A stretch of DNA of 64,000 bases from Kappaphycus alvarezii (taxonomy: Eukaryota; Rhodophyta; Florideophyceae; Gigartinales; Solieriaceae): the NCBI GenBank assembly GCA_002205965.3, contig NADL03000037.1:434001-498000 (forward strand), written 5' to 3'. The translations under genes were made by a program, and so were the position numbers. The notes below the pieces were generated by a model. It saw only the letters and a list, made by a program, of their open reading frames with translations, was not told the origin of the DNA and ran no database searches. The first letter of the stretch is position 1; each line of letters opens with the position of its first letter. Positions 14,011 to 52,260 of the stretch are shown one piece after another.

Positions 14011-14129
14011 GTCATTGTGGCGGACGATCTGTTGCGTTTTCCCATAGCACAGCTCTGTAAGCACTATTGTATTGCGAAAACCCTGGACTAGTTTTGATTC
14101 CCCGATTTTTACCGCATCAGATCCCGGAA

Positions 14130-14440: not shown

Positions 14441-14703
14441 TGACAATTGTTAAGCGAAAACCTGAACCACTTTTGGCGGGAGTTCCATTACGCTTCCCTT
14501 CAACCGGACAAAGTTGAGTAGAGCGCAAGTTGCCTAGAAGGTCATTCAGTTCAGACGTCCCGCGAAACAAGTCTACTTTTCGAATCTCAAGGCTTATTTA
14601 TATGTTACATGTTTGGGGTCAGGGCCCAGTCACCTCCATCCCTTGCTGCAACCTCCTGCATCAACCATGATCAGGAATTCATCCAAGAAGCCCCTCTAAT
14701 TAT

Positions 14704-17700: not shown

Positions 17701-18360
17701 AAGTCCACACTGGCGAGACAAGTTGGGCTTGCTGTAGTCCTCGCTCAAATCGGATGCTTCGTTCCCGCTAAGTCAATGCGGATACGGCCATTTCATAACA
17801 TATTCGTTCGCATGGGTGCGTCCGACGATCTAGCAAGGGGGCGATCGACATTCATGGTTGAAATGGAGGAGGTTGGACATATTCTGAAAAACGCCGACTC
17901 AAGGTCACTGGTCATTGCTGATGAAGTTGGCCGAGGGACATCCACTCATGATGGGTACGCTGTCGCTGCAGCCAGCTTGAAGCACATTGTCGGCGTAAAT
18001 CGCTGTCTGACAGTGTTTTCCACTCACTATTCTCACCTAGGAGAAGAGATCGCAGCCTCTTGTGATGAGAAAGGCGTGGCAGCTGCGTCACTCTATGAGA
18101 TGAAAGCTATCATTAACGAGAGAAGCAAAGATATTACTTTCCTTTATAAGCTACAACCTGGTACTAGCGGCGATTCACGTGGGATTTATTGCGCAAGAGT
18201 GGCTGGCATCCCGGAAAATGTCGCGGCGGATGCTGAAAGGGCAGCTAATATGTTTGATCATCGCCTACAGCGAAGACTACTATCATCAAAGTTCCGCTCA
18301 ATATCGAGACTACTCGACAGTGACAACATCGTTGAAGCAGGGTCATTAGCCGCCTTATAA
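14704..18360 (+). CDS. MSH6: DNA mismatch repair protein, MutS family, MSH6 type
   Basis: The catalytic part is one intronless frame (15328-18360) of MutS architecture. The mismatch-binding motif KGKFYELYDIDADIG lies at about 15586, then connector, lever and clamp, then the ATPase with Walker A GPNAGGKST (about 17684), DEVGRGTSTHDG (about 17920) and STHYSHL (about 18020). It ends with the VAGIP helix-turn-helix region. Just upstream is the segment NHPDYDKTTLFVP, which precedes the mismatch domain in MSH6. An N-terminal PCNA-interacting box QQSILSFF at 14728-14751 also identifies MSH6, which pairs with MSH2 to recognise mismatches in the nucleus. The disordered N-terminus is not in one frame. 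PIP-box frame 14704-15060 and the catalytic frame agree, but 15061-15343 reads in a second frame. The ATG at 14667 lies in a third. Short introns, sequence errors or real frameshifts could explain this. Confidence 0.88.
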
Positions 18361-19190
18361 AGGCTGAACGGCAAATCAACCCGATCTAGTTGACGACGTT
18401 CCCAGTGACTTGCATTCTAGCAATCGCACATATTCCTATCTTTCTGTTATGTAGTGATCTCTTTGACTTGTTGGTGCTGTACCATTGTCTGGATCTTTAC
18501 GAAGTGTCTCAGTAGGTGGATGGGCATAAGTAAAACATTATGTTTCCAAACCTTGCTTAAGTCGTAATGGTACCAACACTATTAAGGGTTGACAAAACAA
18601 GCCGGTGAGGAACACAAGGAACTAGAGTGGGGACTCGAGAGGCGGAGCGTTAGAAAGTTGAATCAATGTTGCAAAATTTGTAACGAGATCCGCTGGAATT
18701 GGGGGTTCAACTGAAGACTCTAGTGTTTCGAGCCCGCAAAAGCGAATGCATGCTCGTTAACAAACGAATAGAAACTCTATCGAACCTACATGCGCTACAT
18801 GCAATAGTCAGCACTAGAACTGAAACCAGGACCGCGTCCCATCTTCGAGAGAGCAACTTTACATTACAAGTGATATTTTTGCAAAGCGGAAGGGGTTTAT
18901 GGGTCTGTTGGTCTCAGCAACACGTCGCAGAATTTTGGATTTCGAATATGGCATATATTTGTCTTTGCTCCCAAGTCGAAGAGGAAAGCTTTCATGTCAC
19001 TTTGAATCTTACCTTCCTCGGCCTCGGCGCTTTGTACAGAAAGAAAGAAAGAAGTTTAATGCGTTCAGTATCTACTGGGGACTGCGCACGTCCTATCTAC
19101 ACGGTTAAGAACAGTACAATGATACGATATCTACGCTTCGGTACAAAGTTACTGGATACCAACCCACATATCCACCACAGTAAATTAACC
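18361..19190. other. Intergenic after MSH6
   Basis: No gene seen. Frames here are short and overlap in conflicting ways without recognisable motifs. Confidence 0.4.
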
Positions 19191-19265
19191 CTTGTATTTC
19201 TCTAGAACAGTACATGTACTGTACAGTTTTGCACAGTACTGTATGTACAGTATTGTACACTGGAT
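19190..19265. repeat. TACTG/CAGTA palindromic repeat
   Basis: CAGTACATGTACTGTACAG and neighbouring CAGTACTGTATGTACAGTA words form overlapping inverted repeats over about 60 bases. Confidence 0.75.
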
Positions 19266-19446
19266 TCAGGTTAAAAGGCTCTATCGGGGGGAATAGGGGA
19301 TGCATTTACGATGGGAGCCCGGAAGGCTGAGAACCAGGCGGTCTCGTGGGGAAGGCGTTGTGTTACCAAGAAAATAGCAGGCGTCGTCATTCTATTTGGA
19401 AAGATGTAGGGAGACCAAACAACAAACAGGACGCGTTAAGAGGAGA

Positions 19447-19880
19447 CTAGCAGTGCGGCGTGCCGTTGCAAAAGAATGGATCTCGTCCTCGAGAAATGCT
19501 CCATGACTCTATTCGCCGACAGCTCTCGCCAGCCCCGTGACAACGGAAAAAGCTTCCGGATGCCATCCTCCCAGAGTAGAGATTGGAATGGGAAGGAGCC
19601 TGGCCCTCTCGGCCTTTACATAAGTGAAAACTTGACACCATCTGTGCTTGACTGACATGGCGGCGTGAAGACTAGTGAGAAGGCTAAAGTTTCGAATCCT
19701 ACAGTGGGAGGGGTCGAGAGGGTTGACGAACGTGACGTCGAAGTAGTTCTTGCCACGTGTCGCTCCTGTTGCTTTGATGTCGGGCCTTGTTCTGCGGAAG
19801 GTTGCAGGTCGAGGCTCTACGATAGGATGCTTTGCCGCTCTGGCGAGGTCGCCTCCTAACGATTGTCACGCCGGATACTG
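19447..19880 (-). pseudogene. Retroelement polyprotein C-terminal fragment, copy 2
   Basis: The minus strand gives AAKHPIVEPRPATF, then TRPDIKATGATRGK and YFDVTFVNPLDPSH. Near 19640 comes a Ser-rich region with the analogue of the LGGWHPEA motif also found at 33480. It is the same family as the copies at 13498 and 33303. It is broken by stops and frame changes and carries no polymerase part. Confidence 0.48.
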
Positions 19881-19984
19881 CGCTCTCTCCCGATCAAAAA
19901 TGAATGAGGTGGTTTATCTGATGCACTCTCGCAAATAAAAATTGAACGCAAACCTCAGTTAAAATTTGTTACCTGGATCTGTGT

Positions 19985-20406
19985 AAGGAAAGTCCCCTTT
20001 CAATGACACAGAGAGGTTAGTGCAAGGACAGGCCAAGGCCGCAGTTCGCACCACGGCGACCCAGGTTGCCGGTGGCGCTGCTGAAGTGGCGGCCCGTAAC
20101 AAGGTTTCAACTCTGTAACGCAACCTCGCCCGACGCCTCCCCGCTCCCTCAACTGGCCCATCTTCTGCGCCTAACACGCCGAACTTCACGTTTCGACCTC
20201 TGGCGTTTGATTCCCTGGGTGCCTCGTCCCCTGGTACAATTGCATTTATCGAGGAGTTAGTTCCGCGGATCGCGTCCACACTTGGCGTTATCCGCCGCCG
20301 TATCCAGCAGCGCCAGAGTTGCACCCTATGGTCATCCATTGCTCAAGCTATCCTCTCACGAGCCCCCATGAGCATGGACGACGAGGTTCATCTGGTTAGG
20401 TCATAG
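19985..20406 (+). pseudogene. Retroelement C-terminal tail fragment (+ strand)
   Basis: An Ala-rich stretch is followed by FRPLAFDSLGASSPGTIAF, EELVPRIA and VIRRRIQQRQSCTLWSSIAQ, ending SRAPMSMDDEVHLV and a stop at 20404-20406. The same peptide is encoded on the minus strand at 39575-39800 and 39905-40150. It lies head-to-head with copy 2, so two insertions have been joined in opposite directions. Confidence 0.45.
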
Positions 20407-34750: not shown

Positions 34751-35368
34751 TGAGAATTCAAAACAACAGGCTACAATGACAAATCACGGAAGAGACATCT
34801 GCTGTAATTAGCTTGACGAACCGTAAGCTCATAGTCTACCAATCATGGTGTTTAGCTAAATCGAGAAATCGAATGGGTGATAAACACATGGGTAACGTGC
34901 CAGGCTCCACTGCCCACCCGCCCCTCTGCCTTGTACTGCCGTTCTCAACCATGGACATATCATTTAAACAAATTTCTAAATTGACGATGCATCCAATCCC
35001 GGGCATTGTATACCCGCGATTTCCACAATGTTTTACTCTCGTGCAACCAGCCGCTACACTCGCCTTTTTTTGGTTTCAACAATCTCGCCTGAACACATCC
35101 GAGATTCCGCACAATTCTACGCAACCACATCAGCACTCTGTACTACAGCCTCTACCTTGCCTCGTGCCGCGACAACGACCCCGTGTTTCGCCACCTCCGC
35201 TATTTTCCTGTCGTTCTTGTACTTTTGTCACATCCTCGTTGCAGTGACTTGTTCACTCCTTCTTCGGACCGAGGCTTGTAGAGGGCAGTCAAGCGTCACC
35301 CGCAGTCATCTCTATTCCAATATAATCCCCTCTCGCCCCCGTCAACCCCTTCACATAGTGCACCCCTC

Positions 35369-36035
35369 ATGCCATACTATAGCCCACCCGATCCGACCTA
35401 TTCCTCTGTCTCTTCCTCTAGACAACCACGCAGAATGGATGCCGCCCTGTTTGAATACTTCGACGTCTGTGCTTGGTCCGTCATTCCGGCCGACCACGAA
35501 CAACCTGCGCAGCAACCCGTTGCACCCTCCAAAATCTCCTCTGTATTTAACAACATAACTACACGATTACAATCTTTTCTTCCTCGCCGTCTTCACGAAC
35601 CCACTGGACCATGGGGTTTGATCCTTGACATGGTTCTTAGCCTTTTTGTCGCTCAAGGCGCCTGCCGTTCTGTGATCGACGCGTTGCCGTTACAAGTTGT
35701 CGGAAAAAGTTCTGAAGTTCCCTCCTCTCCTTTGAAGAGCCATCGTGGGCAAGTGCCAGTACAGGTAGGCGACAAATGTGCCATCTGCCTTGGGTGTTAC
35801 GAAGAAGGAGACTCAGTCAGGCATTTGGCTTGTAATCACGCATTTCACGCTGAGGTACGTCCACCCATCTTCAGTCAATTGGATTCCGCGGGATCCTTTT
35901 TACAACTTCGGAAAGCTCCTAACATGTGCTCCTTAACTTGTTTCCTTCTGTCTTGATTTTGCGCTACATCAGTGCGTTGACGTCTGGTTAGAAAGGAAAA
36001 GCTTGTGTCCAATTTGCAAGAGAGATACCTGCTGA
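35369..36035 (+). CDS. RING-H2 finger protein, probable E3 ubiquitin ligase
   Basis: Exon 1 from the ATG at 35369 (or 35432) encodes a Ser/Pro-rich N-terminus, a hydrophobic-amphipathic stretch WGLILDMVLSLFVAQGACRS, and the first half of a RING-H2 finger, CAICLGCYEEGDSVRHLACN, then HAFHAE. The GT at 35855 and AG at 35971-35972 bound a 118-bp intron. Exon 2 completes the finger, CVDVWLERKSLCPICKRD, and stops at the TGA 36033-36035. The joined finger has the order CX2C, CXHX3H (RING-H2) and CX2C, at usual spacing. Without splicing the finger is incomplete, which supports the intron. The domain at the very C-terminus binds E2 enzymes in this family; substrate unknown. Convergent with the Rab3GAP gene, about 130 bases apart. 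Confidence 0.82.
35855..35972 (+). other. Intron of the RING-H2 gene
   Basis: Donor GAG|GTACGT and acceptor CTACATCAG|TGC. Removal fuses HAFHAE to CVDVWL in frame and restores all eight metal ligands of the RING-H2 finger. Confidence 0.82.
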
Positions 36036-36162: not shown

Positions 36163-38949
36163 TCACACAGAATAATCAAGCCCAAGGCGGAAAGCGACCC
36201 GGAATTCATCCCGACCAAGCCTCGCATACATTCGATCCGTCATGTTCTCACCACGCTCATCATAGTCGCCGCCGGTGATAACAAACTCTCGCACATCCGG
36301 GAGTAACATGCTTCGCCAGCCGCCGTCGTCAAGGCCAGCCATTCTCGCAATTAATTCCCTCTCTCGCTCTTGCACGACATCGGCATATCCGCCGCATGCA
36401 AGACGGTCAACGACATGTCCAAGCCCATTCACTGGGGGCAGCTTTGTAAATACAGACGTAGCAATGAGTCCTGTGTGTTCTGCAGCAGCCGCTCTATCTA
36501 TCGCCGCGGCAACCAAGCCGATTTCCACCACGGTCGACTGGCTCAGCTTCAAGGTTGCGCAGATTTCCCGCACAGCTTGACGAGCTCCCTCAATTTGTTT
36601 CCGCACGTTGGGTAAAATTGGCGTTCTCGAGAATGCTCGATCCAGTAGAGCTACTGCGTTGTTTCCCTGAATCGCTGCCAAGTGGAGTAGGACTTGTGTC
36701 ATCGGCATTGCCCGTAAATCCGCAAGCGCCTTCCTTCCATGCGCCGCAGCGTCAAAAAGAGGAAGTTGTTGAGAGGCAGGGAGCTTCTCAGCTTGTTCCC
36801 ACAGTTCTTCCCATGCGTTTCCCTTTCTTGCCATGCGCGCACTGAGCCTCCCCCTGCGACTCTGATGGGCAGCCGCCGTGCTAGGGACTGGAATGGCCTT
36901 CTCGACAGCCTGGCCTTTGTCGGCCAGTTTCATGGGTGCAAGCTCCGCATTCCGCGTCTTTTCAACCTTCATTGACGTGGGACGGTGTGTCTCTGAGGCA
37001 TCGAAATTCGTACTAGCATCATCTCGGGGCAACCAGTCTGAGGGTGAGAACCATCTTACAAAGTCCGCCATGCTAGCTGTAGGGTTGGCAGCCTTAAATG
37101 CCATCATATCGCTTTTCAAAGTCAAAGACTGGCGTTTTGCGTCGAGATCCACTCCTTTCTCACTAGACTCTGCTCGTAGCACCATTCGTTGTAATTCCTC
37201 CTCAACCATGTCTCGAGTCACCAAAGGATGTGGTTGCACATAGGGCTCCCAGACTCCAGCACCAGATTGTTGGCCCGATTTGCCAACATCACCCCCGCCA
37301 ACAAGTTCAACCCCCTCAAGCAAACTCTTTCGTCCTTTACCGTCATCCTTTTTCCCTCCCGTTGCAGCCTGAAATCCTGCGGTTTCCCGTCTTCGCCTTT
37401 CAACACAGCAATTTATCATTTGCAGTTTCTGTGTGATCAAGCTTGCGTCATGATCAGGTCCATCCTCTGCATTAAATGGGACTCCGCAGATGATCCACTG
37501 ATGTTCCCAATGGACTTCGACCCCATCAAGAAAAAGATTCCATAGCTTGGAGGCCCCATTTACTGTTTCAGAAGCACCGATAAGCCTCGCTAGTCTCTCG
37601 AGAACTGTGGTTTCTGCCGCATTTGGCCCAAGGGCATCGACCACATCAGCCATTATTCCCCGCCCGAGATCCATTTCGAATAAGGCAGCAACAGACGAAG
37701 TCAAAAACTGCTCATCAATACTGTCATCTTGAACGGCAGCTGCGGCTACGTACTCCCCAACTTGGACCAAGTAATCGTCGAGTGCCACTGTTGCCGGAAC
37801 ACTGAAGGTAGTAGGTGTGGAAGTGCCCTGTGGTTGATTAGAGTGGGATGCCGCTGAGCTCTCGTGCTCCCCAGCTGACTTTTTTGTGCTACTTCTACTC
37901 CTCCGAACGTTAACAACGGGAAGAGGGGCAGCTGGATTTGAACTGTTGACTAAATTCGATGCACTCTGTGTTAGGCGTAAGATTGAGAGTGCTGGTGCGG
38001 TAGCAGGAATTCGCGACGATGGTATTTGCGAGCTAGCAATTGCTTCCAATAAGTCAGCCGCTGGGGACAGTCGAAGTCTGGTGGCAGTCGACGCGGGCAG
38101 TCCAGCGAGAACGGTATTTCTTTGCAAAGCAGACGCGTGGAAATTATCCCAAATAGCAGTAACTCTTATTCTTCTGATTGGATCCGACTGCGACAGGGCA
38201 AGTGCCTGCTCGGCATTTAACCTCCTGTCAGATGCGAACGATCCAGGAGTGGGTGCAAGCTTAAAAGAGAAGTCCGTCCAGTCGTAAATAAATTTGGCAG
38301 TAATGCTAGCGTCATTAAGTGGGGGCGGGTGGAGATGTTTGGCAGAAATACGTTTGTTCTGAAACAGTTTGAGTAAACCAGCAAGATGGGTGTAATCTTC
38401 TGATAGTTGGTAAGTATAATCACATGAAAACCGGATGTGATAAGGATGTAGCTGGCGACCTATGAATCGCAGAGAACTTGGTCTCCCAACCGGAACTATT
38501 ACCGGAAGAGCAGAAGAGCAGGCGGAGGATGCAACAGCCATTGCTGAGAGAAGCACCGCCGCATCAGATCCGTCGTCAGCAGCAATGCCATCTGGAGTCT
38601 CTGCAGTTAAAAGAATGCATTCACTCACTCCGAGAAGCCGTTCCAGAGGATAAGATTCCCATATGTCTGTTGGGGAATGACTTCGAAGCTCCATCCAGAG
38701 CGGCTTTTCTCCCAACTTGACAACCGTGCTCGTGATCGGTTGAGGTTCAAGAGGAGAAGTGGATCTCTTGGTCTCAGAGGATTGATCCTCTTTTGCTATT
38801 GTAGCGCTCGGGCGTTGGCCATCCTGCAGCCCCCACCCGCGGAGCTCTAGTTCGATGTCCAATGCCAGACGCTCCCAGGGAGTAGCACAAGTAAAGTCGA
38901 TCAATTCCCCAGCGTTGCTTGAAGGAAGTATGTCTGCACCCAACGGCAT
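36163..38949 (-). CDS. RAB3GAP1: Rab3 GTPase-activating protein catalytic subunit homologue
   Basis: A single intronless 928-codon frame opens at the ATG complementary to 38947-38949. Family signatures in order are FTCATPWERL near residue 20, EHQWIICGVPF at about 485, ITQKLQMINCCVERRRR at about 510, SDMMAFKAANP with DFVRWFSPSDW at about 620-640, and LSARMARKGNAWEELWEQ with LPLFDAAAHGRKAL at about 700-735. These match the conserved C-terminal half of Rab3GAP1, including the region holding the catalytic Arg. The family acts on Rab3, and as a GEF on Rab18, together with Rab3GAP2 at membranes. Length is close to the animal protein (about 980). The middle part (residues 330-480) is Ser/Ala-rich and poorly conserved. 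Stop is TGA. Confidence 0.88.
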   Translation of the reverse strand: MPLGADILPSSNAGELIDFTCATPWERLALDIELELRGWGLQDGQRPSATIAKEDQSSETKRSTSPLEPQPITSTVVKLGEKPLWMELRSHSPTDIWESYPLERLLGVSECILLTAETPDGIAADDGSDAAVLLSAMAVASSACSSALPVIVPVGRPSSLRFIGRQLHPYHIRFSCDYTYQLSEDYTHLAGLLKLFQNKRISAKHLHPPPLNDASITAKFIYDWTDFSFKLAPTPGSFASDRRLNAEQALALSQSDPIRRIRVTAIWDNFHASALQRNTVLAGLPASTATRLRLSPAADLLEAIASSQIPSSRIPATAPALSILRLTQSASNLVNSSNPAAPLPVVNVRRSRSSTKKSAGEHESSAASHSNQPQGTSTPTTFSVPATVALDDYLVQVGEYVAAAAVQDDSIDEQFLTSSVAALFEMDLGRGIMADVVDALGPNAAETTVLERLARLIGASETVNGASKLWNLFLDGVEVHWEHQWIICGVPFNAEDGPDHDASLITQKLQMINCCVERRRRETAGFQAATGGKKDDGKGRKSLLEGVELVGGGDVGKSGQQSGAGVWEPYVQPHPLVTRDMVEEELQRMVLRAESSEKGVDLDAKRQSLTLKSDMMAFKAANPTASMADFVRWFSPSDWLPRDDASTNFDASETHRPTSMKVEKTRNAELAPMKLADKGQAVEKAIPVPSTAAAHQSRRGRLSARMARKGNAWEELWEQAEKLPASQQLPLFDAAAHGRKALADLRAMPMTQVLLHLAAIQGNNAVALLDRAFSRTPILPNVRKQIEGARQAVREICATLKLSQSTVVEIGLVAAAIDRAAAAEHTGLIATSVFTKLPPVNGLGHVVDRLACGGYADVVQERERELIARMAGLDDGGWRSMLLPDVREFVITGGDYDERGENMTDRMYARLGRDEFRVAFRLGLDYSV

Positions 38950-39800: not shown

Positions 39801-39904
39801 AACTTGGAAGTTCAGTACAATACAGTTTGAAATACAGTATATATACAGGTACAGTATAATCATGTGTACTTCATGAATTAAGGATGAAAATTCTTCAAAG
39901 TTTA

Positions 39905-40150
39905 CATCAAATGATTTCTACGGTGTCCACTGCAGGATCCGACTGTGGGGCTTGGAACTGACCCGATGGTCCACGTCGGTCACGTGCAGCGGCGTGCGCG
40001 GGCAGATAGCCATAGCGATAGACGACCAGATGATGCAACTAAGGCAAGGTTCATTCACACGCCGGCGTATCACGCCTGCATTCGTATTATACCGCCGCGC
40101 TATTCGCGGGATTAACTCCTCAAACAAAACAACAGTTTCGCTGGTGCCGT
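39905..40150 (-). pseudogene. Retroelement C-terminal tail, minus copy B
   Basis: The minus strand encodes LFEELIPRIARRYNTNAGVI, then RRRVNEPCLSCIIWSSIAMA and RTPLHVTDVDHRVSS. It is a second, diverged copy next to copy A. It ends about 10 bases from the left edge of the bacterial-type island. Confidence 0.5.
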
Positions 40151-40319
40151 TGTAAAGGGCCTATCGGCCGCTCGCTACACTTATATATATCCTGGCTATG
40201 TTTCCTAACGCTTACCTGCCACGCTGACATGAAAGTCTCGACTTACAGTTGTCGGTCACGTTTACGTAAGAATGCTTTTAATTGCTGACAATATAGGTAG
40301 GGCTTTATTCGGTTGGTAC

Positions 40320-41330
40320 TGACCTGAACCCCATAGAGGTGGTCTTGGATTTTGGACCAAATCAGCAGCGTTTTAAGGTGGAATCTGGTTTCATTTATGC
40401 TACTAATTTCTCAAGTAATGGTTTCGTGTCATAAGCCTCATTTGGGGTCAATATGCCGTGGGATGAATGGGGCCGTTCGGCATTGTAGTAATCCATCCAG
40501 CATCCGATTTTCCGTTTGGCTTGCGAGCCTGTTTCAAAGGCATGCAGGTAAACGCATTCATATTTGACAGACCGCCAGAGCCGCCCGACCATCCGGTTGT
40601 CGATCCAGCGACCACGCCCGTCCATCGAGATTTTCACCTCAGCATCTTTCAAGGCATTGATCCATTCAAAGCTGGTAAATTGAGAACCCTGGTCCGTGTT
40701 CATGATCTCAGGCTTCCCATATCGGACGAGCGCCTCCTTCAATGTCTCAACACAGAAGCTGGCGTCCATCGAGTTCGATAGCCTCCAACTCAGAACCTTG
40801 CGGCTGTGCCAGTCCATGATCGCCACCAGATACAAAAATCCGCGATGCATCGGAATGTACGTTATATCCGCACACCAGACCTAATTAGGCTGGTCAATGA
40901 CCATGTCTTTGAGAAGATAAGGATACACCTTGTGTTCTGGATGTTTCTTGCTGGTGTTGGGTGTTTGATAGACCGGAACCAGCCGCATCAAGCGCATCAG
41001 ACGCCGAACACGGTGACGACCACAGGAATGCCCCTGCGGCTGCATCCAGCGGGCCATTTGGCGAGAGCCATACCAGGGTGTCTGCAAAAACTGCTTGTCG
41101 ATGATTTCCATGAACTTCAGGTTTTCCGCGCTCTCGCCCTTTGGCGTGTAGTAAAGATTGGAGCGCGTCAGGCTCAGCAGTTTGCACTAGCGGCGCACGT
41201 TTAAATCTTCCTTTTCCCTGCTCACCATTTTTTGCCTCGCGTCCCGAGTAGTTGATGCGAAGCATCCGCTAAAAAATCCCGCTCGACAAACAACTTAGTA
41301 GCAGCGGAGAGCAAATTAGAAACAATCAAA
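40320..41330 (-). mobile_element. IS3-family insertion sequence, 5'-truncated, copy 1
   Basis: The terminal TGACCTGAACCCCATAGAGG at 40320 has the look of an IS3-family end and coincides with the point where this sequence leaves the uninterrupted arm at 45727. The other end is missing. Only the last ~20 codons of orfA (ending GTRGKKW and TGA at about 41226) remain, upstream of orfB. Confidence 0.8.
40395..41228 (-). pseudogene. IS3-family transposase orfB, copy 1, two in-frame TAG
   Basis: The frame runs from the ATG at 41228 (overlapping the orfA stop) as VSREKEDLNVRR, TAG, CKLLSLTRSNLYYTPKGE, then PWYGSRQMARWM. The integrase core follows: DQPN, TAG, VWCADITYIPM (first D), MNTDQGSQFTS (second D), and DNRMVGRLWRSVKYE (catalytic E). 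It ends at a TAA at 40395-40397 after PNEAYDTKP. No frameshift is present. In this family the two TAG positions are normally Gln (RRQCELLG and PNQVW). Under the standard code it is dead. The bacterial type of transposase in a eukaryotic setting is unusual. Confidence 0.88.
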
Positions 41331-41398
41331 AACAGTGCATTTACTGATATCACCTAATTACAACACGTCGAAGACATGTCGCCCGCTGAGGGAAATCA

Positions 41399-41840
41399 CT
41401 ATGAGTGATATAATGTGTAAAGAGGCACGTTTTTCTGTTCCGCCTCGGCAGCAAGAGACCTTAGCTCACTCGGCGACCCCGGAGGCTTTTTAATGATCAC
41501 AGGAATATCCCGTTCAATATACGTTCTCGCAACCTTGATGTTATAACGAGCGCCAATAGCAGCATAGGAGACTTGTTTTTCGCCCTTGGGCTGCGGCTTG
41601 CAATTTACACCTATAATAGCTGATCTAAGATCACGATAGATTGGCAACTTATTGGTACGGAAAAGGTCCAGGCCGACAGCATTCTTGTCTATGTCAGCAG
41701 CAGCTATCGGACAGGCATTATTGATAGAAAGGAGCGCTTTAAAAGCAGTGGTTTTCACAATCTGGCCGGCATCAGCAAAAAAAACACCCCCCAAGCGAAA
41801 GTTAGGCTTGAAAAAGGAGCGCTTGAAGATGACATAACGA
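41399..41840 (-). pseudogene. Gfo/Idh/MocA-family oxidoreductase fragment, galactose-dehydrogenase-like
   Basis: A minus-strand frame encodes DAGQIVKTTAFKALL, CPIAAADIDKNAVGL, NKLPIYRDLRSAI, then YNIKVARTYIERDIPVIIKK with PPGSPSELRSLAAEAEQ and LYTLYHS. The pattern of a nucleotide-binding N-domain, the (E/K)KPPG motif and the WHS-like end fits NAD(P)-dependent sugar dehydrogenases, closest in style to bacterial D-galactose 1-dehydrogenase. In the motif EKPPG the Glu is Lys here. The frame ends abruptly in TAG at the edge of the IS3-bearing repeat, so the C-terminal domain is lost. The N-terminus overlaps the opposite-strand repeat gene. Confidence 0.5.
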
Positions 41841-42007
41841 TAGTATGAAGGGCGACGTTGTGGGAAAAGTTTGATGGTTTGATGGGGGAGAAAAGGATGG
41901 TGTTCGAATAGATGGCAAAATTTTGGCTTGCAGCACTTTGGCATCACCTTATAACCACAAAAAAAGTTCTGCAACTATTCAAAAACAAGCGGTCATCCAA
42001 GCCGCTC

Positions 42008-42300
42008 AAATGCAAAACTTACAAAACATTAAACCAAGCGATCTCTTGCACTAGAGTGGGGTCTTTGATTGCAACACGGGAAACAGCGAGGCATTCAACT
42101 GGGTTTAGACAAAACTATTTTCACTCTCCCGATGCAACGGTAAAAAATAGTATTACAACACAGTCTCGTGCTTTCGTTTATTCAAAGCACAACACAGTGT
42201 AGAAACAAGTGTATTCATCTCAATCAACAAAACCACGGGCTTACACTACGCGAGCTTAGAAATTTTTTTTGGAGCATTCAGAGAATATCAAGCTGCTCAA
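42008..42300 (+). repeat. 293-bp tandem repeat, unit 1 (uninterrupted)
   Basis: From ATGCAAAACTTACAAAACAT to the same word at 42301. Unit 2 is 42301-42367 plus 43752-43970, split by the IS256 element. The units differ by about ten base changes and no indels. Confidence 0.9.
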
Positions 42301-42367
42301 ATGCAAAACTTACAAAACATTAAACCAAGCGATCCATTGCACTAGAGTGGGGTCTTTGATTGCAACA

Positions 42368-43743
42368 GAGACTATTCGCCCAACTGTGTCAATTGATTTT
42401 CAGCGATAGTCTTTGCGGGAAATGAATTTCCAGCTGGGAGACGATCAGAGCCCAATTGGCGAGTAGCGTGGTCCAGTTTTGCATGGCCTTTTTGTATACG
42501 AAATAGATGAGTTTTTCGAGTGCGGCCTGCGATGTTAATGCCCCCTTGGATTTGGTGTATTTTCTGATCATACGTTGTAGGCCCTCTACTGCATTGGTGG
42601 TGTAGATGAGGCGGCGTACGTGATGGTCATATTTGAATAGAGTAGAAACCTCGGGCCAATTGTTCTGCCAGGAGCGAATAACATGGGGATATTTTCTGCC
42701 CCACTTTTCTTCGAACAGCGCCAGATTTTCCTCAGCACCTGTTTTATCAGCAGCGCGATAGATGAGCTTGAGATCGACCATCACCGCTTTTTTTGTCCTT
42801 GCTGGCGATATAGCGCATGGAATTGCGAACCCGGTGGATGATGCACAGTTGGACTTCGCACCGAGGGAAGAGAGAAGCTATGGCGTCAGGAAACCCTTTA
42901 AGTCCGTCCACGCAGGCAATGAGGATATCCTCAACGCCGCCCTCCTTGCGGCTGGCAAGCACGCTGGCCCAGTATCTCGCGCCCTCAATCTCACCCAGAT
43001 ATAGCCCCAAAATCTCCTTGTGGCAGTCGCTATCAATGCCCAGAAGCATATAAACGGAAGTTTCACTGACGCGTCCGTCCATCCGCATTTTGAAGTGAAT
43101 GGCATCAAGCTAGAAAACTGCATAGACCGATTGCAGGGGGCGTTCACGCCATTCTTTGAGTTCAGGCAGCAGCCGATCCGTAATCTTGGAGATTGCGCCA
43201 TTGGAGATTTCAACCTGATAAATGTCTTCCAGGTTCGAGCGTATATCCGAGTAGCTCATAACGTTCGCATAAAGATCGAGAATTTTGCTATCGAGGTCAT
43301 CGTTAAGAAGGGTTTGGCGCTTTTTGAAGATTTTTAGCTCAAACTTGGCATTACGATCTCTCGGCACTTCCAGCTCGAAGCTGCCCGATGATGACTTAAC
43401 ATGCTTCTTCGAGATGCCGTTGCGACGGTTTCCGCCAGGTGCAACATCGCACAGGTGATGATCCATCTCACCGTCGAGGGCGGCTTCCATCACGCGTTTG
43501 ATCAAAGGTGACAGCGCATCGCTCAAACCCTTGCCAGTTTGCAGATCGGCTAGAATTCCTGCCTCAACGTCACTTAAATCATTCTTTGATTTTCTCATAT
43601 CAGTGTCCTTCAATTTTGCTTCAAAACGGCCATTGATATGATGGATAACTTGTTGCTGAGCAAAAAAAAGGGCTTTGCTGCCAAGTTAACCACATACCAA
43701 CAGCATAAACAAAATCAGATGACACAGTCATTGGAACAATCCC
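42368..43743 (-). mobile_element. IS256-family insertion sequence with 8-bp target duplication
   Basis: Ends: GAGACTATTCGCCCAACTGT at 42368 and, in complement, GGGATTGTTCCAATGACTGT at 43743. These give imperfect inverted repeats of about 33 bases with a shared ACTGTGTCA core. TTGCAACA flanks both sides (42360-42367 and 43744-43751). The neighbouring repeat unit holds the same target with a single TTGCAACA at about 42067-42074, which defines the empty site. Boundaries are therefore exact to the base. Confidence 0.92.
42389..43613 (-). pseudogene. IS256-family (Mutator-like) transposase, one TAG and one frameshift
   Basis: The N-terminal part (43110-43613) reads LSPLIKRVMEAALDGEMDHH, GGNRRNGISKKHVKSSSG and ELEVPRDRN up to SVYAVF. 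After a TAG come LDAIHFKMRMDGRVS (first D), ILIACVDGLKGFPDAI (second D) and IIHRVRNSMRYIASKDKK. A run of seven A near 42790 then shifts the frame into MVDLKLIYRAADKTG, IYTTNAVEGLQRM (catalytic E) and the C-terminus, ending in TGA. All three catalytic residues are present. Reduction of the A-run by one base would rejoin the frames, so a single slippage event or a read error suffices. Length (~400 codons) is typical of the family. Confidence 0.88.
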
Positions 43744-44052
43744 TTGCAACACGCAAAACAGCGAGGCATTCAACTGGGTTCAGACAAAGCTATTTTCACC
43801 CTCCCGATGCAACGGTAAAAAATAGTATTACAACACAGTCTCGTTCTTTCGTTTATTCAAAGCAAAACACAGTGTAGAAACAAGTGCATTCGTCTCAATC
43901 AACAAAACCACGGGCTTACACTACGCGAGCTTAGAAAATTTTTTTGGAGCATTCAGAGAATATCTGGAAGCTTATATCTATAAATCGCAAACTCCGACCA
44001 TACCCAAGCGGTGACCAGCATTCCACCCAGCACATTTATCACCTGCAACACA

Positions 44053-45318
44053 ATTCATTCTCTCCGCTCACCCTCATAGCAAACCCACAGGTTTACCCTG
44101 CCCTTCAACGTTGAATATGAAGATGTTACCCTCTCTTCTCACGCCTTTACTCTCAAAATTGGCCAAGACATCGTCAAGGCCTCCTACAATCAATCCACCG
44201 GACAAGGAACACTCACTGGCCCGGCGAAGTACCCCAAGGAAATAAGGTCCATCGCCGAGGTACTCCGCATCGACGAAAGTGATGCAGGCCAGCCGGCTCT
44301 TCTCCTCGACCCCAATTAGATCCGCAACAATCATGCTGTGAAGTCTGCTATACAACGTATTCGAACGGGACATTCATCTGCTGGGTTCACTGGTTGGCGA
44401 TCTCTCGGCACTGCTTGCAATGGGGGAACCACCGGCGCTTTCTTGTTCGTGACGGTCGTCACGGGTGGGTTTGTAGGGCTGGAATACGGCTTCCGAAACG
44501 TTGCGATTGAAGATGCCTTGAAGAAACGCATCTACAATCTGATCATGGGTGTCACCACGGCCATCCCACAACCGCTCATCTTTAGTGCACAAGAGCTGGT
44601 TAGAAGTGCTCTACAAAGTAAGCGCAGATATAGCGTGCCTGATAATGCACATGGGGTTTTCAAGCCTATGCTGGAAGTGCTCAACAACGAACTTGGCGCT
44701 ATTGGTATTGTTGGCGGTGTGAGTGGGCTACTTAGTGCTCTTGACCCCACACGATCTTTCATCACCTCCACCGCTTGGAGCCACGGTAAATTCTTCTCAG
44801 GTTTCGCAGCCTGGAGCGTATTCAGAGACTTGATTGCAAGCATGTGCCTTGGGGCCGCGGAGGTAATCGATGTCAACACAAAGGTACTAACCCGCACACA
44901 TAAAGCTCAACTTGACCGCTGGACAACAGAGTTTTGGACCCAAAAGATCAAGAGTAGGAGCACTCGAGTCATGTTTGCCAATCTTTTTCTTCGTATGATG
45001 GTGGCTGAAAAGGTGTTCACCAACCACAACGCTATCACTGAGGCTTTAACCAGTGGACAAGCCTTGGCAGAAAGCAGTGTCACAATTCGCTTTGCAGAAT
45101 TCTTCTGCAATAACGCTATCTACGCAGTCTGCATGACAACGGCGACCCGCCTTCTTAGCTGGCTCTCTTTGGAGAAACTCGCCCATCCCCGCAAGTAGTG
45201 CTCCACTACTCAGTAAAATTATTATCCGTTGTTCTTGTCTCGCATTTTCCGCAATCTATCCGAGTATTTTCTAGATAGTCTAACTGTCAAGTACGCACAC
45301 AGCTCACTTCCGCCTTGA
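44053..45318 (+). pseudogene. Unknown gene, membrane-associated, with in-frame TAGs
   Basis: The longest uninterrupted part is 44320-45198 (ending HPRK, TAG). The same frame is protein-like both upstream (FNVEYEDVTLSSHAFTLKIG, IRSIAEVLRIDESDAG) and downstream (NYYPLFLSRIFRNLSEYFLD), crossing TAG at 44077, 44317 and 45196 and TAA at 45214, until a TGA at 45316-45318. The protein has several hydrophobic segments (GAFLFVTVVTGGFVGLEYG, IGIVGGVSGLL, FSGFAAWSVFRDLIASM), suggesting membrane association. I do not recognise it. It may be one gene of ~420 codons under a code where TAR is sense, or an ORF with decayed ends. Confidence 0.45.
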
Positions 45319-45329
45319 AAGCTGCCGAA

Positions 45330-45574
45330 TGGTTCTTTCTTTTCTTCATCGTGGATCAATTCCTTCATCAATCAATCCACCTTAACACATGGTCCAAAAT
45401 CCAGGAACACCTCTCTATTTTGTATTACGGTGTCATCATTTGTCGATTGCTTTTGCCGTGTTAGGTGCCGATGCTACCGAAATAAGCTGTCTCTTACGTG
45501 TCACCCCGTTTTCCTCGCGGTTACCCACTTGCGGTTACCCACTGTAGGCAAGCTTACAGTGGCTTAGAGTGGCT
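45330..45574. other. Spacer with short repeat
   Basis: No gene. CGCGGTTACCCACTTGCGGTTACCCAC at 45514-45541 is a direct repeat of GCGGTTACCCACT, next to the left arm of the HAD element. Confidence 0.5.
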
Positions 45575-45851
45575 GCTCGCTACACTTATATATATCCTAG
45601 CTATGTTTTCTAACGGTTACTTGTCACGCTGACATGAAGGTCTCGACTTACAGATGTCGGTCACGTTTACGTAAGAATGCTTTTAATTGCTGACAATATA
45701 GGCAGGGTTTCATTCCGTTGGTACTGGTGCCGGGTGTCTTTATGGCAAGCATTACGGTTTCCCGGTTAAATTCTTTTGCAATGGTTTTGGAAGGTGCAGG
45801 TCAGTTCACATTTTACGATATAAGGGGATTACGGCTCACTTAACCAGCCGC
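45575..45851 (+). repeat. Left arm of ~275-bp inverted repeat
   Basis: Complement of 46856-47130, with few mismatches, from CTCGCTACACTTATATATAT to GGCTCACTTAACCAGCC. The outer 155 bases recur at 40168 and 47244 beside the IS3 copies. The inner part opens a short frame, MASITVSRLNSFAMVLEG, reading toward the centre in both arms. Confidence 0.9.
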
Positions 45852-45992
45852 CCACGCGAGGGAAATCACTCTGAACGGGGCAGGGATTGCTTACGAACAA
45901 AGCTAAAAACCTAAGGCCACGCGGTATATTCTCTAAACATCACTCACGGCACCATCATAGTGAGTGCTATTGCTGTTTGCCGCAGGCAGAGA

Positions 45993-46964
45993 TTATGCCC
46001 GGTTGTCTCGCGGCGCTTGCCACCCCCTGTCTCCGATGTAACGCCAGATAAAATGGAGCCCTCTCTGTAATTCGCCAACATTCTTCAGTGAATTGAGCGA
46101 TACCTTCGATATACAGCCGATCCAGTAGCTTGAACCATACCCCTTTGGCACCTTAGGTTTGTACTTGTTGGCTAGCTTTAGCATCCCGATATCGTTACTA
46201 GAATTTCCTAATGTGAAAAGGATCACATTACTGAAATTGAGTATACTCACGAGGTGGTCAATTACCTTAGTGGTACCGATTGCCTTGGTGTGGAGCCCAT
46301 TTTGGATAATGATCTCCACAGTAGTGTCGTATTTGTGATCATACACTACTATGTCATTACGCTTGGAGGCAAGCCTTCGGAAGAAATCTAGGTGCTGGTC
46401 GTATTCAGGTCCTGTTTCGCTGCGCTAGTAACTGAACCCGATGGCGTCGCCCAATTCCAGTTCAGAGACATGAGCGTGGTTATTAAGGATATCTCTGGCT
46501 TTGGCCTTGAAGTTCTCGCATTCTGGAAATGGATAACAAAAGGGCGAGGCTTCGTAACCTGCATTGCTAGGGAAACGTATCCAGCTACCATCTTTGGCGA
46601 TAAGTGGCAGCTGAAGCCTCGGGAAAGCGGCATCCGCATCTTCAGGGCTTCGGCCAGTTGCCAAAACCACGATGACTTAGGCGTTTGCACCATGGATGAG
46701 CTTGAGAGCGTTAATGACTTTCTGTGGTGCCGGGATGATGGCGCCAGTACCAGATGATCGCTTGAGATTGTCATCAATATCGAAAACCAGTAAAACGGCG
46801 ACCTTGGGATCATTTTTTGCGTAATCGATGGCTCGACGGATCGTTCCCCCATAGGTGGCTGGTTAGGTGAGCCGTAATCCCCTTATATCGTAAAATGTGA
46901 ACTGACCTGCACCTTCCAAAACCATTGCAAAAGAATTTAACCGGGAAACCGTAATGCTTGCCAT
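45993..46964 (-). pseudogene. HAD-superfamily hydrolase (Cof / sugar-phosphatase-like), three in-frame TAR
   Basis: On the minus strand one frame without indels runs from the ATG at 46964 (inside the right arm) to the TAA at 45993. It shows HAD motif I, VAVLLVFDIDDNL, at about 46800, motif II-like VVLATGRSPEDADAAF at about 46650, a cap segment, and motif IV TLGNSSNDIGML at about 46190. DxDxT is DIDDN here. TAA interrupts after GLRLT and after HGANA, and TAG after IGFSY. The family removes phosphate from sugars and small metabolites; the general style is bacterial Cof or sucrose/trehalose phosphatase-like. It is the only cargo between the inverted arms. Confidence 0.68.
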
Positions 46965-47130
46965 AAAGACACCCAGCACCAGTACCAACGGAATGAAACC
47001 CTGCCTACATTGTCAGCAGTTAAAAGCATTCTTACGTAAACGTGACCGACATCTGCAAGTCGAGACTTTCATGTCAGCGTGACAAGTAACCGTTAGAAAA
47101 CATAGCTAGGATGAATATATGTGTAGCGTT
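46856..47130 (-). repeat. Right arm of ~275-bp inverted repeat
   Basis: Inverted copy of 45575-45851. It supplies the first 33 codons of the HAD frame. Together the arms enclose a 1.55-kb unit that looks like a mobile cassette or a foldback element. Confidence 0.9.
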
Positions 47131-47167
47131 AAGGGCCTATCGGCTTCACGGCCGATAGGCCCTTAAC
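47128..47167. terminator. Perfect 17-bp hairpin
   Basis: GTTAAGGGCCTATCGGC pairs without mismatch to GCCGATAGGCCCTTAAC around a 6-base loop TTCACG. It lacks a T-run, so a Rho-independent terminator is not certain. It sits at the junction of the inverted repeat and the duplicated segment, and half of it (GGGCCTATCGGC) recurs at 40157 at the left edge of the island. Confidence 0.7.
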
Positions 47168-47269
47168 AACAGCACCAGCAGTCCAATCGGCCGCTCGCTA
47201 CACTTATATATATCCTAAACAACAGCACTAGCGGTCCAATCGGCCGCTCGCTACACTTATATATATCCT
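47165..47269. repeat. 53-bp tandem duplication
   Basis: AACAACAGCACCAGCAGTCC... and AACAACAGCACTAGCGGTCC... each run through CGGCCGCTCGCTACAC and TTATATATATCCT. The second unit continues into the 1.24-kb duplicated segment. Confidence 0.85.
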
Positions 47270-48478
47270 GGCTATGTTTCCTAACGCTTACCTGTCACGC
47301 TGACGTGAAAGTCTCGACTTACAGTTGTCGGTCACGTTTACGTAAGAATGCTTTTAATTGCTGACAATATAGGTAGGGCTTTATTCGGTTGGTACTGACC
47401 TGAACCCCATAGAGGTGGTCTTGGATTTTGGACCAAATCAGCAGCGTTTTAAGGTGGAATCTGGTTTCATTTATGCTACTAATTTCTCAAGTAATGGTTT
47501 CGTGCATAAGCCTCATTTGGGTCAATATGCCGTGGGATGAATGGGGCCGTTCGGCATTGTAGTAATCCATCCAGCATCCGATTTTCCGTTTGGCTTGCGA
47601 GCCTGTTTCAAAGGCATGCAGGTAAACGCATTCATATTTGACAGACCGCCAGAGCCGCCCGACCATCCGGTTGTCGATCCAGCGACCACGCCCGTCCATC
47701 GAGATTTTCACCTCAGCATCTTTCAAGGCATTGATCCATTCAAAGCTGGTAAATTGAGAACCCTGGTCCGTGTTCATGATCTCAGGCTTCCCATATCGGA
47801 CGAGCGCCTCCTTCAATGTCTCAACACAGAAGCTGGCGTCCATCGAGTTCGATAGCCTCCAACTCAGAACCTTGCGGCTGTGCCAGTCCATGATCGCCAC
47901 CAGATACAAAAATCCGCGATGCATCGGAATGTACGTTATATCCGCACACCAGACCTAATTAGGCTGGTCAATGACCATGTCTTTGAGAAGATAAGGATAC
48001 ACCTTGTGTTCTGGATGTTTCTTGCTGGTGTTGGGTGTTTGATAGACCGGAACCAGCCGCATCAAGCGCATCAGACGCCGAACACGGTGACGACCACAGG
48101 AATGCCCCTGCGGCTGCATCCAGCGGGCCATTTGGCGAGAGCCATACCAGGGTGTCTGCAAAAACTGCTTGTCGATGATTTCCATGAACTTCAGGTTTTC
48201 CGCGCTCTCGCCCTTTGGCGTGTAGTAAAGATTGGAGCGCGTCAGGCTCAGCAGTTTGCACTAGCGGCGCACGTTTAAATCTTCCTTTTCCCTGCTCACC
48301 ATTTTTTGCCTCGCGTCCCGAGTAGTTGATGCGAAGCATCCGCTAAAAAATCCCGCTCGACAAACAACTTAGTAGCAGCGGAGAGCAAATTAGAAGCAAT
48401 CAAAAACAATGCATTTACTGATATCACCTAATTACAACACGTCGAAGACATGTCGCTCGCTGAGGGAAATCACTATGA
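47239..48478. repeat. 1.24-kb segmental duplication, copy 2 (contains IS3)
   Basis: Direct copy of 40163-41404. After the shared end GGAAATCACTATGA it continues ACGGGGCAGGGATTGCTTAC, a word also found at 45878-45897. Confidence 0.9.
47471..48302 (-). pseudogene. IS3-family transposase orfB, copy 2
   Basis: Same gene as copy 1 and the same two TAG codons at the same places. Two additional single-base deletions near 47504 and 47520 shift the frame in the last ~20 codons, so the C-terminus reads LTQMRLMHETIT. The truncated orfA remnant upstream is also identical. The nonsense codons and the 5' truncation therefore predate the duplication. Confidence 0.88.
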
Positions 48479-48479
48479 A

Positions 48480-50590
48480 CGGGGCAGGGATTGCTTACGA
48501 ACGAGAAAGGCTCAGTCCCTGCGGAACCTGCGTCCCAGTAGTGCGGCGGATCGCGGGGTAGCATACTCGGCAGAACGTTCACGGGCCGGTGCAGCGTCTA
48601 TGACGCTATGTCGCCCTGTATCAGCACGTGGGTACTTTAAATGGAGACGTGCCCTTTCCGGTTGCCGTACGATTTGGCAGCGCACTGCACAGTAGAACAG
48701 AAAAAAAAGTGGAGCTGGAACAGCGAAAGCAAGCGCAAGGAAAGGAAAGGGATGAAAAGTGAAGGTTCTGCTTGACCGCAGACAATAGAAAGGAAATGGA
48801 CAAACTAAAAATAGTGGCGCACCCATGGAACGACGACACCATGAACAACACAAAGCCCGGCGTTTTATTCAACAAATCCCCTTCTTCCGACGTTTCCTGG
48901 TCCATTTTCGCATAGGAAAAAGTAGTAATACACGGTAGGAGCGATGAGGAGAGGAGCTCCTGATCATCTATCACTATCATAGTGTGGCGTTTGAGTGCAA
49001 CAATGAAGCATTTCTGCGCGAGAAATTGACGTCTCAAAAGGCAAAAAAACTACTAGAAGTGAAGATTTACGTTCCTTGGGGGTTAAAAAGAGAAAGAAAC
49101 AGAAAGCAATTAATGGCATCAGCACTAAACTAGATACAAGTGAGATATTGGGCTCTACTACACAGTTGGATGCTCTTTGCTAAAGAGTTTGTTCCATATA
49201 AATACCTACATTCAGATTCTTCAGAAGTCAGTACCCGAGTAGAAGAAAATAGAACAGTTTAAATGCATCATATTCAAAAGAGCAATAAATGTTTAATGTG
49301 GGCTATTAGTATTTCGATACCGGTAGGAAGAATTTCCGCAACTATCCGAGACAATCTTTTGTATCTCTGAATTTTACACAGAAGATGTTGAAGAGAAAAG
49401 AAGTACGAGATGTAGACTAGAAACAAAAGAAGGACAAGATGGATCAGATGACTAGTCAGTTAAATGAGATGTAATTTTTCCTAGAAGCAATTAGTGAGGT
49501 CGGGGCCTTCAAAAAAACGCTAAACAGAAGCAGCTAATAGTCTCAGCCATTATGTTCAGAGTGACCATCAAGCGATTCAACAACCTCAAATACCGCACTG
49601 GACCATTCATTTTACCGATAAAGAAATAAAATCCCATTCTTAGGACTCCGTATAATCCTCAGGGCAGCATTGTTAAGTTCTTGGAGCTTTTTCTCGGGTA
49701 AAGGTCCCGATAGAATGAAGAATTGAAGAGAAAGGAACAAGAAGGGAGTAAAACAGCGGATAATTCATAAATTTTGTGAGAGGTTGATTTTTTGGGTGCG
49801 GCGAAGAAAGATGACCAATAAGAAGCACTGCTGAAATATAGGAGAAACAGTGTCATCTAATTCGACGCCTATATGGGTAAGGCCCCGATTATTTGTTCAT
49901 CATTGACAGTTCTGGTGTTCAGCAAGAAAAAAATTTAGGTCAAAAGGACTTGGAAGGAATAATGGACCAGTTTTTTACCGTTTAGTTTGGTTAGGATGCT
50001 TACTTTGGTCTTTAAATGTGTGTAATTTGGGCAGTTTTGTCGTTGAAAAGCAGATGAAGCTAATAAATAACTGAATAGGTTGCTAATGAAGCCTGTTTTG
50101 CTTATGAAGGCCTCCATAAAGGGCGTTTTAGAAAGTCAGTGCAGTTTGAAATTCGCATTTGTGAAGTCTTATAAGACTGAAACTCATCCTTTCTTGGATA
50201 CAAATGCCGTCTGATTTCAAGTCACCCATTTTTTGCGAAAAGCTGAAAATTGCCCAAACGACCACCCATCATCGAATGGTCGCTATGGAAATTGCAGTTG
50301 CTCAAGTATTTGGTTTTTTGGATAAATTTCTAGCTTCCTACGAATTTTTTGTCTAAGCTTTTGATTTTTGACGTACGGAATGCCCTATTCGGCCTCATTA
50401 TGAACATTTCAGCTCATAATTAGACTTCTAGGTGTATATAAACAATCCTCCGCTACGGTCTTCAGCAGGTGAAACTGTACGTTGGGACGTTATTTCCTGA
50501 TGAACTTTCTTGACAGTACACTTAGCGGGAATATGCTGGCTTACACGAATATTTCGAAGATATGCGGCAATTAGATTTTGTCCGGAGAGT
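48480..50590. other. Right flank of the island, no gene seen
   Basis: 48480-48700 is GC-rich, then AT-rich low-complexity sequence. No coding frame with recognisable motifs on either strand. Confidence 0.4.
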
Positions 50591-50599
50591 GATTTATAC

Positions 50600-52260
50600 T
50601 TAAATTATAACGCTTCTAGTGCTTTAAAATAATGCTCAAGCACACCTTTCAATTTTGTTGTGTATAATATTTGGAATTTACTGTAGGGAGATGGTGGAGA
50701 TGCTTGAGCTTTTGTTTGTTATTTATCATATATTCCCGGCAGGCATACTTGTATTCAGCTATGAACTTGTTCCGGCATTTAGCTAGGCTACCAGAAACTT
50801 TCATATTTTCTTCCCTGAAGCGCATGGAAATGTAGTATGAGACCTCCTCAACCCATGGTGCATGTAGTGCAATGCGCTGTGCGCAGTTCTTCACGTCTAG
50901 AAACGGAACCCCGCCAGACAAATGAGAGAACCAACACACACACACCAAGACCCACAGGGTTTTCGCTGTCCCTCTTTTTCTTTAAGAAACCTGCGATGCG
51001 CTAGCACAGCTCGCCGACGGCGAGGAAGAATGGGGTTGGAAGAGCGGGGGTAATTCCTTGGACTGCTGGACGGTATACTTTTCCTCTGGGTTGTGAGGCC
51101 GGACCGTGGTCCGCGGAATGCTAGAAACTTGATGAGGATCGATTCCAAAGAACCGTAAACACCAGTGGTGTAATATTGGACAAAGAAGATGTAGTAGTGT
51201 GTCAGCAGTGCTGAATATCTCCTTTGAAGATAAGGATGTTGTCACCAACGACAACCATGAAGTTCCTACTTGTATATAGACGCCGGAGTCCGGGGCGCCA
51301 AGTGTGAGTAAATATCACAAACAAACAACAAAAGGGGTATTATAATATCGGATAGAGGGGGGGAATAGAAATGGAGACCCCGGCGGATAAACGTGGCTAT
51401 AGCCAAAGTTGCCGTTGGTAAGGTTTCTGCAAAGGCGGAAGTTGGGAGTCAAGTTCAGAGCCAACACAAGCGTGCCTGTTTAATCTAGGGCCCTAGTGGC
51501 CAGGTAGTTACAAATAATAGTTAGCTAGGTTAGTTTTATCTACGACGGCGGGGTGAGTGAAGTTAGGGTCAGCCAAGTAAGGGAGATCCAAGTTAGAGAT
51601 AAGTAAATTCGACAGTTGGTCCAATAGGTGCATTTCACATGCGAAAATGTCAGGTCCAATTCGGGGCCCGAGTGGTCCAGATTGCAAGCCTTCAAGCACT
51701 CTCGGGTGGGTATATGGTACCAAGAGTAATAGTGGGCGACAAGCGAAAATTGCTCTTACTGTACAGTACAGTGCCTGCTGGTTAGCAGTGAATCAGATCA
51801 AAAAAAGATCACCAAAATCAGCTCTGCCGATAGCAATACAGTGTGAGTGCCAATTGCACTACAGTGCAGAGGATTGGGTGGGCAATGGAGTGGAACGTAT
51901 GGGGTTTGGAGCTATTCTTAACGGTGATAAAGTGGGTGACGCATGTGAGTTGAAATACGCATAAATTTGGTTTCGTGCTTTGCTTAGTTCACTGTTGCGG
52001 AAACTAGATGGCGCAAAGGTCTTTGAAAGAGCTAGATACTTTTTTAGGATCATTATAATACTTCGCTTCGCGATAAATACAATCAACTTGCGAGTTTTCG
52101 ATGGATTGCTCAGAATATTTATTGAGAAAAGCATAATGATAAGGAAGTACTCGAGCACGCGATCCCTTATGACATCATTAGAGAGGTAATAATCTTCAAC
52201 ATACCCTTAATGCAATCCACAAGAGACTGTTCCAATTCTGTATGTTGTCTAATATCCTGC
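50600..52260. repeat. Dispersed element family, copy 2, split by an insertion
   Basis: 50600-50870 matches 3523-3770, and 51860-52200 matches 3790-4130, both in the same orientation. The ~900 bases between include TGGCGCCCCGGACTCC on the minus strand at about 51287-51302, right after CACA. That would suit an LTR end followed by a tRNA primer-binding site, suggesting an LTR-element remnant inserted into the family member. Confidence 0.45.

Follow-up and report, generated by a model that had tools for sequence, protein, structure and literature searches.

An island of 8364 bp at positions 40139-48502 of the analysed window (the whole 64,000-nucleotide stretch C37:434001-498000, from an assembly of 336.02 Mb in 884 contigs) consists in all likelihood of old mobile DNA of bacterial origin, now decayed and rearranged, that resides in the algal nuclear genome. 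The island, to which no strand is assigned, lies between two portions of a single host repeat and contains pieces of an IS3-family insertion sequence (IS) and an IS256-family element, which together amount to 3406 of the 8364 bp (41%). The first-pass annotation of this DNA had described bacterial-type sequence inside eukaryotic sequence at 40163-48478. The eukaryotic setting was supported by the host repeat at both junctions, and the edges were roughly right and are now drawn at 40139 and 48502 from the limits of that repeat, but a clear match to bacterial elements, namely the IS3 pieces and IS256, covers only about 3.4 of the 8.4 kb.

The two junctions lie in parts of the same high-copy repeat. 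The left remnant (39897-40138, forward strand) ends at 40138 and was matched at 88-91% identity in all six repeat copies compared, and the right remnant (48503-48607, forward strand, 105 bp) begins at the island edge. At least 38 copies of the left part, over about query positions 198-439, occur outside the window (40 of 1836 candidates scored), as do at least 38 copies of the right part, some of them partial (40 of 106 candidates scored). Each of the six compared copies has the two parts in the order and orientation seen at the island, separated by 847-926 bp, and none of the six matched the island sequence on either strand. Upstream of the position of the right junction, all six run on in sequence that is mutually similar and unmatched in the window. 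The six copies include two pairs that are 99.6% alike over 3.1 kb, and thus amount to about four distinct loci; the parts agree in order and orientation in these distinct loci as well. The 3.1-kb stretch pairs, C590/C46 and C841/C44, are each possibly one locus assembled twice. Among the matches listed, the parts are 845-926 bp apart on C44, C46, C447, C590, C609, C771, C782, and C841, 5.1 kb apart on C32, and 7.4 kb apart elsewhere on C37, and the left and right parts are unpaired in the remaining copies. The simplest account would be that the 8364-bp island took the place of the middle of one repeat copy, a reading of the junctions that is strong but not final because the right remnant is short.

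The IS256-family element (42368-43743, reverse strand, 1376 bp) carries the marks of its own transposition. The proper ends attributed to it previously were confirmed: its ends are matched, and a perfect 8-bp target duplication, TTGCAACA, stands on both sides. Target duplications of 8-9 bp are typical of the IS256 family. Three fragments of the element gave PF00872 matches of 3.9e-27, 6.9e-25, and 3.3e-20, all over the cut-off. With the NCBIfam model, whose cut-off of 150 bits applies to the whole protein, a 233-amino-acid part read in one frame scored 106.2 bits. The transposase is not intact, as it contains one in-frame stop and one frameshift, and the element is a decayed member of its family. 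It is inserted in the second unit of a tandem repeat on the forward strand, in which unit 1 (41998-42288) and the first part of unit 2 (42289-42367) precede the element, and the second copy of the 8-bp duplication with the rest of unit 2 follows it (43744-43964). Unit 1 keeps the same junction uninterrupted and thus represents the empty site, and the two units are identical at 278 of 292 positions once IS256 is skipped. In translation, two segments covering most of the length were 55 and 47% identical to an Acinetobacter protein and 54 and 46% identical to a Vibrio protein. At least nine plasmid records carry a match at 60-80% identity (among at least 5000 plasmid records counted), and eight bacterial-genome loci were 34-50% identical. 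The IS256 elements of Acinetobacter, Vibrio, and Psychroflexus share with the island copy most of the protein, the matched ends and the 8-bp duplication, whereas the island copy is broken, is 49-55% identical in its best 15 plasmid matches, and lies on a eukaryotic contig. The stretch 41380-44030, which contains IS256 and the tandem repeat, had no further match in the assembly beyond C37.

The IS3-family sequences had been counted as two copies. The orfB gene is indeed present twice (Pfam rve, 1.1e-17 and 9.6e-18), but we read the pieces as one split element plus a duplicate of its right-hand piece. The right-hand piece (40335-41295, reverse strand) carries a terminal repeat and orfB with two in-frame stops; when these were read as X, the first orfB copy gave rve at 2.4e-24, rve_3 at 8.4e-16, and HTH_21 at 6.2e-12, the combination that defines an IS3-family transposase. 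The left-hand piece (45305-45414, reverse strand), recognised by comparison with bacterial loci, consists of a terminal repeat and the start of orfA. The two pieces share their orientation, and the contiguity of orfA and orfB that marks the family is lost in this element, which is in two pieces. The terminal repeats (40335-40359 and 45390-45414) are 92% complementary, and both match bacterial IS ends. The element was compared with six loci, five on Rhodobacterales plasmids and one on a viral contig, the last being a 62% IS3 relative. The right-hand piece matched all six at 70.6-73.6% DNA identity, over a shorter stretch in some, and the left-hand piece matched three of the six (L032, L035, and L036) at 72-76% over 104-111 bp, with short weak matches in L031 and L033 and the terminal repeat alone in L034, whose record starts inside its IS3 element. 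At the protein level, orfB was 71-75% identical over 287-295 amino acids to four Rhodobacterales plasmid relatives and up to 80% identical over 142 of the C-terminal 151 amino acids, where the best plasmid relatives were also Rhodobacterales. The IS3 elements on Rhodobacterales plasmids (Haematobacter, Paracoccus, Roseovarius, Phaeobacter, and Falsihalocynthiibacter) have the same kind of orfB protein and matching terminal repeats. In contrast, the island element is in two pieces with about 4.0 kb of other DNA between them, where about 190-200 bp of the bacterial element was not found; part of orfA was not found either, and the element bears two stops and no target duplication.

The order of events within the IS3 sequences can be partly reconstructed. 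A 1248-bp direct repeat, 40157-41404 and 47233-48478 (the second on the forward strand), is 99.3% identical with 9 differences (7 substitutions and 2 single-base gaps), and its second unit contains the second right-hand piece at 47411-48369. Since a separate left end of the same IS3 kind lies at 45305-45414, one split element with a duplicated piece would account for all of these sequences. The second copy ends at the same break as the first and carries the 109-bp filler U, so the duplication came later than the break. The filler (41296-41404, no strand assigned) lies between the IS3 break and a dehydrogenase-like fragment and recurs in the duplicate and, at 97%, on contig C590; a DNA search of the plasmid collection with it gave no match. 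The two stops sit where all four aligned relatives carry a residue, so that on the split-element reading the IS3 element would have been dead before the duplication. The outer flank of the IS3 left end (45415-45571, no strand assigned) also recurs on C590, and a DNA search of the plasmid collection with 45415-45860 gave no match. In the assembly, the orfB stretch 40440-41290 was matched by the duplicate only, and of nine protein-level IS3 matches two were close, both on C37, and the other seven 24-37% identical; in these assembly searches an absent match does not establish rarity. A weak, broken IS3-like integrase was seen at C54:286781-287059 (rve_2, 27.9 bits against a cut-off of 22; rve_3 under its cut-off).

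Diverged and rearranged pieces of island DNA are present elsewhere in the assembly. On the 3.1-Mb contig C590, the copy at 1576119-1576870 comprises U at 97% identity, the left end of IS3 together with the sequence just outside it (45203-45571) at 90%, and an inverted 45145-45322 at 95%, with 88-97% identity for the pieces overall; nothing in it matched island positions 41405-45144. A DDE_1 transposase remnant lies near this copy. The copy was also considered as a terminal-inverted-repeat transposon, which was rejected on finding the end motif (up to three mismatches, no gaps) at its own two ends only. A 56-bp palindrome, 93% self-complementary, adjoins it. On C719, positions 200330-200695 hold a decayed sequence related to the final part of a 286-amino-acid frame of the island, 73% identical over 371 bp and adjoining retroelement genes, and a fragment of the same frame is also present on C590. 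The diverged, rearranged pieces on C590 and C719 suggest that the island DNA has been in this genome for long, enough for it to diverge and rearrange.

A second bacterial IS cluster was found on contig C780, where its full stretch is 774027-777163. An IS256 element of another subfamily, with bacterial IS ends, occupies 774584-777063 and is 77.8 and 74.2% identical at the amino acid level to Leisingera thetidis and L. methylohalidivorans, respectively. The 82 bp immediately outside it also match a Leisingera plasmid. It is interrupted by a 1.09-kb insert with an HTH_38 score of 24.5 bits, under the cut-off of 27, whose translation presumably resembles IS30, judging by a motif. An IS3-family remnant (HTH_21, rve, and rve_3) adjoins the element. 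The surroundings contain a Harbinger-type DDE_Tnp_4 match of 22.8 bits (cut-off 24.8) and repeats common to the window, and three other frames there had no Pfam match.

The island itself records the transposition of IS256 into its present surroundings, the interruption of IS3, the later duplication and the decay. IS256 reached these surroundings by ordinary transposition, most likely before the transfer to the alga. A marine alphaproteobacterium associated with the alga is the probable source of the bacterial DNA, which would have entered the nucleus and been captured when a break in a host repeat was repaired, a route that may account for the loss of the target and for the scrambled and inverted pieces. 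After entry, it would have decayed and rearranged without function. As described in PMC6110788, the nucleus of the red alga Porphyridium purpureum maintains bacterial plasmids without integration, which makes an entry route for bacterial DNA plausible. The two cases are alike in offering a route by which bacterial DNA could persist near a red-algal genome, but the P. purpureum plasmids stay episomal, whereas the island DNA lies in a large contig.

The remaining contents of the island are of less certain nature. A 156-bp module, R, occurs at 40166-40321 (forward strand), 45571-45726, and 47242-47397 and inverted within 46854-47128, and all five of its matches in its own genome fall in the island. 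Two 275-bp arms, at 45578-45852 (forward strand) and 46854-47128 (reverse strand), form an inverted repeat of 96.4% identity and enclose a HAD-hydrolase-like pseudogene (45990-46850, reverse strand). The HAD hydrolase named in the first-pass annotation received moderate support from a PF08282 match of 8.6e-08, obtained with the frame translated with X at its stops, but it is a pseudogene with three stops and had no match in the plasmid collection. Seven PDB matches of this frame, some of them to toxin chains, were at E-values of 0.087-0.62, too weak to be used, and were taken as chance. The module of inverted arms and pseudogene was matched in the assembly in this island only. A short palindrome with 17-bp arms and a 6-bp loop is present at 47128-47167, after the inverted module and before the duplicated unit. 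The sugar-dehydrogenase fragment reported earlier corresponds to 41402-41974 (reverse strand), which, on moderate to weak grounds, may be a diverged fragment of a Gfo/Idh/MocA dehydrogenase. Its frame had one match in the plasmid collection, to a Halomonas protein that is itself PF01408 at 3.2e-22, but the match has an E-value of 0.01 and 24% identity, and the frame had neither a Pfam match of its own nor a PDB match. The pair scored 42.7 bits and the best of 100 shuffles 20.4, a comparison in which the pair had been preselected as the best match. The 286-amino-acid open reading frame (44338-45198, forward strand) had no plasmid, PDB or viral-contig match; its assignment as a GMC oxidoreductase (E-values 0.0057 and 0.0099) was under the cut-off and was rejected, and AlphaFold without an alignment gave a mean predicted local distance difference test score of 38. 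An antisense frame at 44074-44373 had no Pfam match. Four components, namely the module of inverted arms, the filler U, the tandem repeat and the 286-amino-acid frame, gave no bacterial match in the searches made, and part of this frame has relatives on other contigs.

Host DNA is contiguous on both sides of the island, with genes and repeats on the left and repeats only on the right. Host genes were confirmed on the left side, where a MutS-homologue gene with MutS domains lies at 15328-18360 and a Rab3GAP catalytic domain at 36163-38949. The left flank also contains a piggyBac-type transposase (DDE_Tnp_1_7, 11004-12116) and a RING domain (35282-35956). To the right, a host repeat at 48634-50659 (no strand assigned) is common to contig C586, at 83% over 2064 bp, and 10 frames within the window had no Pfam match at an E-value of 0.01. 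Base composition fails to set the island apart, with a guanine-plus-cytosine (GC) content of 0.476 against 0.494 on the left and 0.435 on the right; the corresponding CpG ratios are 0.94, 0.87, and 0.83.

Several observations weigh against an island of resident bacterial DNA. Over half of it has no clear bacterial match. The right remnant is 105 bp of an abundant family and could have arrived by another route, and the right flank is recognisable as host by its repeats alone. No 3-bp target duplication was found for IS3, whose two ends are flanked by CAT and ATT; among the three bacterial loci with both ends, such a duplication was seen by eye in L032 and L035 and not in L036. The single origin of the IS3 pieces is a reading we infer from their orientation and terminal repeats, and the host context of the C780 cluster appears weak. 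Bacterial-looking contigs, C534 and C556, are present in the assembly, so contamination is real elsewhere in it: 20 kb of the former (1-20000) and 10 kb of the latter (181500-191499) are dense in long bacterial-type frames with a mean GC content of 0.54-0.56, a bacterial look judged by reading frames and not by family search.

The last of these points bears on contamination or chimeric assembly, in which bacterial DNA would have been fused to an algal contig at repeat sequences and which the first-pass annotation had put forward as the main alternative. Both junctions do lie in a high-copy repeat, where misjoins are likeliest, and the 10 frames of the window to the right yielded no recognisable host gene. 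However, the repeat parts at the two junctions agree in order and orientation, the orfB (40440-41290) and IS256 (41380-44030) stretches had no match on any other contig, and the elements are decayed and nested, with diverged relatives on two large contigs near eukaryotic transposon genes. The PF00872-matching stretches of C534 and C556 also showed no DNA match with the island. Since one host repeat borders the island on both sides, its history is layered and diverged relatives of its pieces occur elsewhere, we regard this explanation as highly unlikely. An integrated red-algal plasmid that had acquired bacterial elements was likewise suggested; plasmids occur in red algae, and some of them contain genes of bacterial derivation (PMC4814812), and the persistence of bacterial plasmids in a red-algal nucleus (PMC6110788) would fit as well. 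Nevertheless, the scan of island frames recognised neither a replication gene nor a plasmid gene and nothing found points to such a source, no algal plasmid being among the sequences compared, so that this origin seems quite improbable.

The bacterial character of the elements and the place of their transposition can also be questioned. IS256 might have moved as a functional element within the nucleus of the multicellular alga, into DNA that was already algal, and IS3 possibly transposed there too. The perfect 8-bp duplication and the kept empty site are consistent with transposition in the nucleus, and the relative of the 286-amino-acid frame on C719 and its fragment on C590 may indicate that the surrounding DNA is partly of host origin. 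However, no other copy of the tandem repeat entered by IS256 was found in the assembly, this IS256 was found just once, and IS3 is without a target duplication; we therefore consider nuclear transposition unlikely. A last explanation is that the elements belong to eukaryotic transposon families resembling bacterial IS, such as Mutator-like or IS3-like superfamilies. One IS256 fragment did reach 19.3 bits for the MULE domain, under the cut-off of 27.6, and a eukaryotic superfamily, IS3EU, exists and was named for its similarity to prokaryotic IS (PMC10045372). Against this, the IS3 protein reaches 80% identity with copies on Rhodobacterales plasmids, whose termini are the same, IS256 is 46-55% identical to bacterial IS256 in two segments over most of its length, and no second close copy of IS3 or IS256 was found in 336 Mb. 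A eukaryotic origin of the elements is thus hardly credible, and decayed bacterial mobile DNA resident in the nuclear genome is the explanation that we prefer.

To our knowledge, bacterial insertion sequences have rarely been documented in eukaryotic nuclear genomes, and none of the open-licence literature titles listed concerned IS3 or IS256 in the nucleus of a red alga. A precedent for such a transfer exists in the IS5-like element of a bdelloid rotifer (Gladyshev and Arkhipova, 2009, as cited in PMC10045372), and the island would be a further instance. The rotifer element is alike in being reported as a bacterial insertion sequence transferred to a eukaryotic genome, while here two families occur in one scrambled and decayed island, together with a second cluster. 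The base-level junctions, the empty site and the diverged relatives make the route and the age testable. Our results also call for caution, as bacterial-looking genes in such assemblies are not always contamination. If the host is a red seaweed, the clusters on C37 and C780, which are of a marine Rhodobacterales kind, would suggest that mobile DNA of its companion bacteria reaches its chromosomes.

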